From Geoglobus sp. (GTDB lineage Archaea; Halobacteriota; Archaeoglobi; Archaeoglobales; Archaeoglobaceae): a DNA stretch of 10,218 bases. Shown piece after piece: positions 4,124-5,836 of this stretch. How positions within the stretch are numbered: position 1 is the first letter of the stretch; each line of letters starts with the position of its first letter. The stretch is from NCBI GenBank assembly GCA_027019885.1, contig JALUWC010000270.1:1-10218 (forward strand), written 5' to 3'. The notes beneath the pieces were generated by a model that saw only the letters and a program-made list of their open reading frames with translations, had not been told where the DNA came from and ran no database searches. Position numbers and translations under genes: made by a program.

Positions 4124-4311
4124 GTCAGATTATTAATAATTTTCTCTTAAAATGGAAGAAAGGCTGTCTGAAGAAAAATTTATCAAAAAGCAGCAAGATT
4201 TAGAATGATTAAATTTAATTATCCAACGAACCCTTAAAAAATGGAGACTTCAATTTCAGCTTTCGTTTGAGTTACTTGATTTCTAAAATTACAATTTTTC
4301 TCTTAAATCTG

Positions 4312-4328
4312 CACAAAAATTTAAATAT
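4312..4328 (+). promoter_or_regulatory. Promoter of the structured leader and Cys-rich gene
   Basis: An A-rich BRE-like stretch precedes TTTAAATAT (4320-4328). The usual archaeal spacing of about 26 bp from the box centre puts the transcription start near 4350. That is almost exactly the 5' edge of the GC-rich structured leader at 4352, so promoter and leader support each other. Confidence 0.65.
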
Positions 4329-4351
4329 CCTAATTGCATTCAACCTTTTCC

Positions 4352-4410
4352 GCAGGCAGGTATGCCTGACCCCGACAACCTGTCTGCTTACAGTCTGGGG
4401 TCGGAGGTGA
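4352..4410 (+). ncRNA. Structured 5' leader: candidate H-type pseudoknot, riboswitch-like
   Basis: Stem 1 pairs GCAGGCAGGT (4352-4361) with ACCTGTCTGC (4378-4387): ten base pairs including one G-U, around a 16-nt loop. Inside that loop GACCCC (4368-4373) is complementary to GGGGTC (4397-4402), and GAC (4374-4376) to GTC (4393-4395) with one bulged base. Together these make an H-type pseudoknot whose last strand ends directly against the ribosome site GGAGGTGA (4403-4410). A competing six-pair hairpin, CAGGCA (4353-4358) with TGCCTG (4363-4368), would exclude stem 1. The block is GC-rich within AT-rich intergenic DNA, as structured RNAs of hyperthermophiles tend to be. This resembles small translation-controlling riboswitches such as preQ1 types, but I recognise no known class and cannot name a ligand; a protein-bound operator is the alternative. 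Confidence 0.55.
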
Positions 4411-4415
4411 ATTGA
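4362..4415 (+). CDS. 17-codon upstream ORF ending at the next start codon
   Basis: An ATG lies in the loop of leader stem 1 and opens a reading frame coding MPDPDNLSAYSLGSEVN. It ends at TGA 4413-4415, immediately followed in the same frame by the TTG start of the Cys-rich gene. The ribosome site of that gene (4403-4410) lies inside the last codons of this ORF. If translated, ribosomes would melt the leader fold and could re-start at the TTG, so it may be a leader peptide. It has only a weak ribosome site of its own (GGCAGG), partly buried in stem 1. It may equally be chance. Confidence 0.3.
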   Translation: MPDPDNLSAYSLGSEVN

Positions 4416-5432
4416 TTGGAAGTGGAGGATGAAAGGTTGCAATTTAAGGAGTGTGAAAGTTATGACTATTTTTGTCCTATAACAGACAGGTGCACGATTG
4501 CAGAGCTCAAAGGAAAGGTGTGTGTCAGGTGTGTTGATGAGATCAGAAGGGTTTTGAATGAAGAGGGCTTTTCTGTCGTTCCTGCTGGAAGAACTACAGT
4601 CGTGATCGTTCCGGAGGTTGTAGAGGGCAGGGATGGCTACCATTATGAAGGTGCGAGAATATATGTCTTAAGCGATCCAAGTTCTGGAATAAGCAGAGTA
4701 GATGAGCTGTTCATAACAGGACTGAGGTTTGGACTGACTGATATTATTTTCAATGGCGTTCCGGTTTATTCGGTTTATGGCAGCTTCGGCAATGATGCTC
4801 GTTACGCTCTTTCGAGGCTGATGGCATCCGTTCAGTGGAAATTCATGAATGATGAGGGCAAAATTGCCGATGAAGATCGAGTGAAAGAACTTCAGAGAAT
4901 GCTTATCGAGATTGGCAGAGAACTTAACTGCCACATCGACGAAAGGTATGCATTCCACGGCACATACACCAGCAGTTTCGAACCAGTCGGACCGAGGAGA
5001 ATCCTCATAGTTTCAGAAGATGACTCTCTTCTCGGACCAATAGCAAGATTTGCCCTCAGAAAAGTGGTGGATTTGGTGGAGCTAACGATCTTTGTGGATT
5101 CTGCAGCGTATCACAGCAAAACGGAACTGCACGAGTTTGCGAAAGAAGTCATAGACAAACTTTACGGCAATTCTAACGAATTCACTCCAAAAGATGTTGA
5201 GTGCTTGGAATTTGAAGTGTTTTCGAGACCGGTTCTGGACTATGATCTCATCATAGTGCTCGAGGAGAGGTTCAGGGTAGGTCTGCCGGAAAATAGGACT
5301 TACTCGCTTGAGGAGATCACAGGAGTAAGACTGAATAATCCCGAAGACATCTATGAAGCCTTTGAGATTGCAGAGGCTCTGGAAGATGCGTTCAGGAAGA
5401 ACATATTCAAAATTTTGGAGTTGATTTACTGA
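4416..5432 (+). CDS. Cys-rich protein with C-terminal LMW-PTP-like pseudo-phosphatase domain
   Basis: A 338-residue soluble protein of no family I can name. It starts at TTG 4416, five nt after GGAGGTGA. The N-terminal part has five Cys in 27 residues (C13, C20, C26, C36, C39), suggesting a Zn or Fe-S site, followed by an unrecognised alpha/beta region to about 190. Residues 194-338 follow the LMW tyrosine phosphatase layout: strand RILIV, a P-loop position reading SEDDSLLGP, a DSAAY segment where SAG(T) is usual, strand DLIIVLEE, an N308-P309 where the general-acid Asp-Pro is expected, and a long C-terminal helix. Both the nucleophile Cys (Ser200) and the P-loop Arg are missing, so phosphatase activity is not expected. 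It lies 20 bp ahead of the zinc-finger gene, probably in one operon, behind the structured leader. The fold assignment is by eye and moderately sure. Confidence 0.6.
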   Translation: MEVEDERLQFKECESYDYFCPITDRCTIAELKGKVCVRCVDEIRRVLNEEGFSVVPAGRTTVVIVPEVVEGRDGYHYEGARIYVLSDPSSGISRVDELFITGLRFGLTDIIFNGVPVYSVYGSFGNDARYALSRLMASVQWKFMNDEGKIADEDRVKELQRMLIEIGRELNCHIDERYAFHGTYTSSFEPVGPRRILIVSEDDSLLGPIARFALRKVVDLVELTIFVDSAAYHSKTELHEFAKEVIDKLYGNSNEFTPKDVECLEFEVFSRPVLDYDLIIVLEERFRVGLPENRTYSLEEITGVRLNNPEDIYEAFEIAEALEDAFRKNIFKILELIY

Positions 5433-5452: not shown

Positions 5453-5836
5453 ATGGAAAGGATTCAAATCCCGCCTGACCTGTTTCTCGAATTTATTGAT
5501 GTGGAGCTTCCCTACTATCTAATCAAGCTGGGGAGGTATGGGATGGCTGAAACTTCAGACTTTATTGAAATGATCCTTGACGGAGAGAAACTGAGTGCAT
5601 TTGCGGTGAAGGGAGAGGAAAAAATACTCTTGGGAGAGGTTGACAGGAGAAAGCTCAAGAAAGTTGAGGAGCTTTACAGAAAGGGATTGCTTGAGGCAGT
5701 ACCATACAGAGGTGCACCAGAGGGCAGAGCTCTCTGTCCGATGTGCGGAGAGCCGGTATTTGACAAATGGCAGTATTATATGGGCCACTACTATCACAAG
5801 GAGTGTTTCCTGAAGCACTACAGGAAGTTCTGGTAG
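5453..5836 (+). CDS. Small protein with C-terminal CxxC/HxxC zinc finger
   Basis: A 127-residue hypothetical protein. The body (1-90) is charged, alpha/beta in character and unrecognised. The C-terminus holds C95-P-M-C98 and H115-K-E-C118, a LIM/RING-like treble-clef arrangement that should bind one zinc ion; His112 could be an alternative ligand. The ATG at 5453 follows a G-rich ribosome site (GGGGGGAGAG, about 5440-5449) and lies 20 bp after the previous stop, so it is probably co-transcribed with the Cys-rich LMW-PTP-like gene. Both proteins carry Cys clusters, which hints at a shared metal- or nucleic-acid-related task, but nothing in the sequence fixes the function. The frame stays open and gene-like throughout, with no sign of decay. 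Confidence 0.75.
   Translation: MERIQIPPDLFLEFIDVELPYYLIKLGRYGMAETSDFIEMILDGEKLSAFAVKGEEKILLGEVDRRKLKKVEELYRKGLLEAVPYRGAPEGRALCPMCGEPVFDKWQYYMGHYYHKECFLKHYRKFW

Follow-up and report, generated by a model that had tools for sequence, protein, structure and literature searches.

The question raised by this locus is whether the leader of a gene with an N-terminal Cys cluster folds into a pseudoknot that controls its translation, and whether such an RNA belongs to a known class. The window, i.e. the whole stretch of DNA analysed, comprises 10,218 nucleotides of a Geoglobus sp. The preferred reading, to which we assign a probability of roughly 0.55, is a narrow, new archaeal pseudoknot leader: a conserved H-type unit at the 5' end of the gene A mRNA, gating translation. 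The features concerned are the following.

4308..4344, + strand: promoter motif TTGA..AAAAATTTAARTAT..TCAAC, with TATA box at 4320-4327 (3 mismatches to a loosened pattern that 0 of 200 shuffles match)
4352..4361, + strand: P1 5' arm (direct reading; 50/50 P1 cells paired in five copies, P1 also given by RNAalifold)
4362..4365, + strand: loop L1 (NTGC; pairwise identity 82.5%)
4366..4373, + strand: P2 5' strand, core 4368-4373 (38/40 P2 cells paired; two pairs changed on both sides)
4374..4377, + strand: loop L2 (GACA), invariant in five copies
4378..4387, + strand: P1 3' arm (direct reading and pair count)
4388..4396, + strand: loop L3, 9 nt (8 in genome G002), near-random in sequence (pairwise identity 38.4%)
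4397..4404, + strand: P2 3' strand, core 4397-4402 (core identity 83.3%, two extension columns 30%), the last two bases overlapping the ribosome site
4403..4410, + strand: ribosome-binding site GGAGGTGA (direct reading)
4416..5432, + strand: gene A, 338 aa, TTG start at 4416; Cys cluster at the N-terminus, degenerate LMW-PTP-like domain at the C-terminus; no Pfam match
5453..5836, + strand: gene 2, a small CxxC/His protein next after gene A and kept beside it in genomes G001 and G002

All the bases of the stem, the loop complementarity and the adjoining ribosome site put forward in the original prediction were confirmed on reading. P1 consists of ten pairs, one of them G-U, between 4352-4361 (GCAGGCAGGT) and 4378-4387 (ACCTGTCTGC). 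The loop that it closes (4362-4377) contains GACCCC (4368-4373), the exact complement of GGGGTC at 4397-4402, and the ribosome site lies directly 3' of the latter. This second helix, P2, can be extended to eight pairs (4366-4373 with 4397-4404), the two added pairs, C4366-G4404 and U4367-G4403, reaching the first two bases of the ribosome site. An alternative hairpin (4353-4358 with 4363-4368) is also present in the sequence. The TATA box (TTTAAATA) is compatible with a start near 4350, and at two sister promoters (L102 and L105), the genes of which look leaderless, the ATG lies 5 nt past the motif, a place equivalent to 4349 in the window. Both agree with the start predicted near 4350, and transcription would begin at about 4349-4352, at the 5' edge of P1. 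A scan for bacterial-type promoters is uninformative for archaea.

A scan of the window for a 10-bp stem combined with a 6-bp helix between loop and 3' sequence, with criteria fixed after the element had been seen, returned a single match, which lies on the + strand, and nothing on the - strand; five matches came from 60 first-order Markov sequences of equal length, about 0.08 per strand. Without the second helix, stems of 10 bp are no rarity (window 3 and 4, random sequences 1.7 on average).

Copies were sought with a 36-nt pattern allowing up to 3 mismatches, which has five matches, spread over 4 of the 60 genomes searched (that of the window among them), the reversed control giving none. 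A 32-nt pattern recovered the same five within the class (4 of 59 genomes), and a covariance model found them again as strong matches in 4 of 59 class and 4 of 392 phylum genomes. These copies lie in the window, in G002, on contig C46 of genome G000, in G001 and in G008. The G002 copy stands 5' of a gene A orthologue. That on C46 stands 5' of a gene A paralogue which the contig end truncates; McrBC genes lie immediately upstream. The G001 copy faces an unrelated gene, gene B. The G008 copy (L020:6600-6850) possesses the shared promoter described below and the element, the next listed gene (at least 80 aa) starting about 265 nt downstream; this copy may be a remnant or an RNA that acts on its own. 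Among 40 offsets compared, all five copies reach six pairs out of six only at the P2 place.

The covariance model gave 12 places at E <= 1, of which five were used. Four weak places (G003, G060, G065 and G006) were dropped, as were three antisense readings (G001, G002 and G008) of the same palindromic elements, the one in G001 (E 1.7e-5) being the gene A side. Another search (E <= 10) gave 11 places, of which four were used and seven (E 0.2-1.4) were taken as chance. A pattern scan of a set of genome contigs returned four stretches, the only true copy being that of Archaeoglobus sp. JdFR-32, taken to be the one listed above as G008. The bacterial stretches L029 and L030 were rejected; they are devoid of the P1 5' arm and were read as coding for Leu-Asp-Pro-Asp-Asn-Leu-Pro. 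Bacterial L031, cut on its 5' side at the match and without a GGGG partner in the 29 nt that follow, was rejected as well. None of the 27 pattern matches from a related-locus search of contigs was confirmed as a relative, the element was not found in the viral contigs and phages searched, and the plasmids searched gave one weak, chance-like match (E 0.07). A sixth instance is implied by protein P0002: its N-terminus and the window leader, read in the same frame, give an ungapped alignment of 20 residues. According to the genetic code, this protein sequence would place GGxCCx and GGGxCC at the two P2 positions with the same L3 length.

The two interleaved helices are retained in the five copies: together with the 50 paired cells of P1, the 8-bp P2 brings the total to 88 of 90, one row being registered by hand. 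Pairing falls to 28-53% when the partners are slid by 1-3 columns. Within P2, at column pair 20-52 the window has A-U and the remaining four copies have G-C; pair 17-55 is U-A in C46, C-G in three copies and an unpaired C-A in G001; pair 18-54 is U-A in two copies, U-G in two and an unpaired U-U in C46. One-sided changes with pairing kept occur at P1 columns 3-38 and 7-34 and at P2 columns 19-53, and no P1 pair has changed on both sides among the five copies. The observed pairing and covariation were reached by 37 of 500 shuffles with the 8-bp P2 and by 86 of 500 with a 6-bp P2, and an N inserted by hand in the G002 row, which keeps its 8-nt L3 in register, favours structure for that row. The P2 covariation in five sequences is suggestive, not significant. 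The outcome that the original prediction had set against itself, related leaders with neither conservation nor compensatory changes, did not occur: they show conservation and two compensatory P2 changes, weak as the latter are at 37 of 500 shuffles.

The conservation profile is a stronger sign than covariation. Mean pairwise identity amounts to 100 and 88% for P1, 100% for L2 and 90% for the P2 5' strand, drops to 38% in L3, rises again to 83% in the P2 3' core and falls to 30% in the two extension columns and 35% in the two that follow, so that the P2 3' core is conserved between drifted flanks. The 36-nt core of the window is identical to that of G002 at 33 of 36 positions; 36-column stretches of gene A average 25.2, with a maximum of 31.

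Folding energies leave the pseudoknot undecided and partly speak against it, since most copies are predicted to fold otherwise. Over 4346-4420 the minimum-energy structure contains the alternative hairpin and not P1 (z -1.82; 11 of 200 shuffles as good), and 4350-4390 alone folds as P1 (z -3.88; 0 of 200 shuffles). At 37 C, the energies predicted for 91 nt are -28.1 kcal/mol for the nested fold, -16.2 for P1 alone and -10.4 for the P2 duplex. The minimum-energy nested fold includes P1 in one of the five copies at 37 C (C46) and in two at 80 C (C46 and G008), the predicted fold of the window RNA at 80 C being an extended P2; RNAalifold on the five copies gives P1. The alternative hairpin had been offered as a second state of the RNA. 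It is contained in the minimum-energy fold of the full leader and pairs in 30 of 30 cells, but the sequence there is near-invariant and no pair has changed on both sides; P0002 implies a base other than G at the position of 4364, and the hairpin would thereby lose a pair. Independent support for it as an evolved second state was not obtained.

Masking of the ribosome site, also proposed at the outset, may apply to some copies and is not supported as a general rule. P2 abuts the site in the window and in G002, two of the four copies that precede a gene. Past the P2 core, the site follows after 13 nt at the C46 paralogue and after 5 nt before gene B of G001, and G008 has no gene there. Masking is thus not universal, since the site is 5-13 nt downstream in two other copies, a distance that may still be near enough to disturb 30S loading. 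The proposed mechanism can be summarized as follows. The first 55 nt or so of the gene A mRNA would fold into an H-type pseudoknot (P1 of 10 bp, L1 of 4 nt, P2 of 6-8 bp, L2 of 4 nt and L3 of 9 nt) acting as a conserved functional unit, and P2 would close on the ribosome-binding site or just upstream of it. Formation of P2, helped by a bound trans factor (a protein or a small molecule), would then block or gate the loading of the 30S subunit. Conservation, pairing, position, narrow spread and the shared promoter are observed; transcription from about 4350, the action on translation, the direction of control and the binding of a trans factor are inferred, and the leader could be a riboswitch.

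The gene placed under this leader is itself rare. Within about 5.8 billion proteins, a search with the single gene A sequence found four homologous entries, itself included, and a profile found five among the best 8000 candidates scored. Four of 60 genomes gave a match: the window, G001 (70% identity), G002 (69%) and a partial one in G024; the profile matched in 5 of 59 class genomes and adds a partial G037. Gene A has no Pfam or PADLOC match at the limits used, and its relative P0004 matches PF01451, the low-molecular-weight phosphatase family (E 9.6e-7). By alignment, the active-site stretch of gene A is degenerate and P0004 keeps more of the motif; we take the gene A domain to have lost catalytic residues. 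A structure prediction of gene A from six sequences (mean pLDDT 39.7) was not used. The window holds a second domain of this kind at 862-1992, where a metallophosphoesterase is fused to an LMW-PTP domain.

The promoter in front of the element is shared with other genes. A search for TTGA-N-CAAAAAATTTAARTAT...TCAAC with 3 mismatches allowed gave 12 places in 6 of 8 genomes and none with the reversed control; the window copy is outside those 12 and is found exactly by another pattern made partly from it. The motif is an imperfect inverted repeat around the TATA box (window 4308-4344; loci L094-L105). Three of the 12 places are element loci (G002, C46 and G008). Pfam analysis of six of the nine other downstream proteins identified RmuC (7.5e-50), GIY-YIG (9.5e-6), the CARF-winged-helix family HFX_2341/DUF6293 (3e-14), NurA (4.6e-14), Mrr_cat (4.6e-6) and a Csa3_N-like match below the cut-off (3.9e-5); at the remaining three loci the proteins begin like RmuC (G001 and G002) and GIY-YIG (G005). 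This sharing of the promoter with CARF, RmuC and nuclease genes makes it probable that gene A is part of a set of repair and defence genes. The genes with this promoter (CARF-HTH, RmuC, GIY-YIG, NurA, Mrr_cat and gene A) constitute a candidate CARF regulon. We assume that MM_0565, a CARF protein of Methanosarcina mazei, is of the same subfamily as the CARF protein found here. MM_0565 is reported to be a transcriptional activator that lacks a distinct binding motif (PMC7465815), and recognition of cyclic oligoadenylates is reported for CARF regulators of the Csa3 type (PMC8844856, PMC8699464). On a bolder and quite unlikely extension of the preferred reading, promoter and pseudoknot would form a cassette, a new archaeal RNA class in front of several CARF-linked defence and repair genes that adds an RNA-level translation check to transcriptional control and, in its boldest form, reads an infection signal such as a cyclic nucleotide.

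The foremost competitor of the pseudoknot leader, unlikely as we hold it to be, is a DNA operator. A dimeric repressor, perhaps the CARF-winged-helix protein encoded nearby, would bind the palindrome CAGGCA-N4-TGCCTG just past the predicted start, the P1 3' arm supplying a third half-site, and the fold of the RNA would be incidental. The near-invariance of P1 argues for sequence-specific recognition rather than a mere stem and suggests that P1 is read either by a protein on the RNA or by a DNA-binding protein on the palindrome. An operator would account for P1 bases that hardly vary and hold a 16-bp DNA palindrome, perfect in four of five copies (TGCTTG in C46) and placed at the predicted start. 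A CARF-HTH gene is found in the neighbourhood of gene A in G001 and G002 and some 1 kb away from the element in G008, and a CARF homologue of at least 55% identity is present in all four element genomes. Such homologues are however found in 23 of 59 genomes, 19 of which lack the element, and 44 of 59 match at E <= 1e-20, which weakens CARF as an element-specific partner. Moreover, the nine promoter loci (of 12) without the element are also without the palindrome, and an operator does not account for the compensatory change in P2, for the conservation of L2 or for a conserved P2 3' core that keeps an almost constant distance.

The G001 locus also speaks against a pseudoknot leader of gene A. 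Its genes A and B are divergent with one element between them (L022:5650-5800) and both frames open. Seen from gene A, the core is inverted; the opposite reading faces gene B, on the side of which a matching GGGGCT lies 9 nt beyond P1 and is followed after another 5 nt by the ribosome site. The search for the shared promoter motif gave nothing at this locus, and G001 gene A has an inverted core and no recognisable promoter, yet an intact frame. The simplest account would be that both genes once diverged with a promoter and an element each, and that a deletion between two 10-nt direct-orientation arms removed both promoters. The distance from the conserved tRNA-Val flank to the element is about 38 kb in G001 versus about 430 nt in G002. 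A defence island occupies G001:1199747-1237550 (L076, L077), with Cas10, a CRISPR array, a PLD-helicase, an Eco57I-like restriction-modification methylase and a family B DNA polymerase near the tRNA; it is not at this place in G002. A CRISPR-repeat origin of the element was rejected, the repeat of the one array compared (GTTACCGTTCTCCTTATGAGATTC, in G001) being unrelated.

Recent descent could by itself produce much of the conservation if promoter-plus-leader copies had travelled with their genes, with common origin and not function keeping them alike. The narrow spread (4 of 392 phylum genomes) fits this decidedly unlikely reading, as does the promoter kept with the leader: the window, G002 and C46 show 0 mismatches to the pattern made from them and G008 shows 3. 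The drift is nevertheless uneven, since L3 and the bases past P2 are down to 30-38% identity, a loss not shared by P1, L2 and the two P2 core strands, and the DNA of gene A itself is 71% identical between the window and G002. A 5'-terminal pseudoknot might also shield the mRNA from 5'-3' decay instead of controlling initiation. P1 does start 6-7 nt after the promoter motif in the window, G002 and C46, at the predicted first nucleotides, and the ribosome site is not at a constant distance. In G008, however, P1 is preceded by about 34 additional nucleotides (41 versus 6-7), and in the window and G002 P2 runs into the ribosome site; we hold this explanation to be highly improbable. Finally, next to no credence is given to a leader peptide encoded by NTG CYT GRC CCC GAC AAC CTG: the variable base of column 13 does give ATG, TTG or GTG in all five copies, but a coding frame conserved in length and content was not found among them (the frames end after 17 codons in the window, 25 in G001, 16 in C46 and 11 in G008, and that of G002 stays open through 34 translated codons), the shared-codon changes (CCT/CTT, GAC/GGC and TCT/CCT) all change the amino acid, there is no clear ribosome site upstream and P0002 has Ile there.

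The pseudoknot leader was compared with known RNAs. The absence of a known class, already noted in the original prediction, agrees with the Rfam covariance models, which gave 0 matches in the window. On 4300-4480, with E up to 5, Rfam returned only msiK (11.9 bits, cut-off 33) and flavi_FSE (10.3, cut-off 43), both on the other strand; the G008 copy matched no family, and the preQ1, SAM-II, SAM-V, SAM-SAH and crcB models gave no match at gathering score. No description of the element was found in the literature searched, which consisted mostly of abstracts and left many subscription papers outside. To our knowledge, few leader RNA classes are known in archaea. The element, if real, would be a compact and testable RNA control element of a hyperthermophile and would have to fold at the growth temperature, near 80-90 C. 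It would be attached to an almost unstudied gene family and to a promoter common to CARF, RmuC, NurA and other nuclease genes.

The ToxI RNA of type III toxin-antitoxin systems is a pseudoknot of about 36 nt before a protein gene, as is the element by size and place; a system of this type was rejected, there being one element at each of the five places, no tandem repeats and, at the limits used, no Pfam or PADLOC match for gene A. The fluoride (crcB) riboswitch is a pseudoknot as well. It is reported as a structured leader class found in archaea (PMC2864571), a trait shared with the element, which differs in giving no match to its covariance model. Leaders with k-turns bound by L7Ae are described as archaeal 5' leader RNAs through which translation is regulated by the bound protein (PMC6298567); the element is likewise a predicted archaeal 5' leader and differs as a proposed pseudoknot. 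The element shares with two further riboswitches a small H-type pseudoknot with the second helix at the ribosome site, as seen in the window and G002. These riboswitches, preQ1-I and SAM-II, are H-type pseudoknots at the ribosome site, and the element is unlike them in its longer P1, its L2 of 4 nt, a site that is not always adjacent and a downstream gene that is no known metabolic gene. Small pseudoknot leaders are known as a kind; the family described here is new to Rfam 15 and very narrow.
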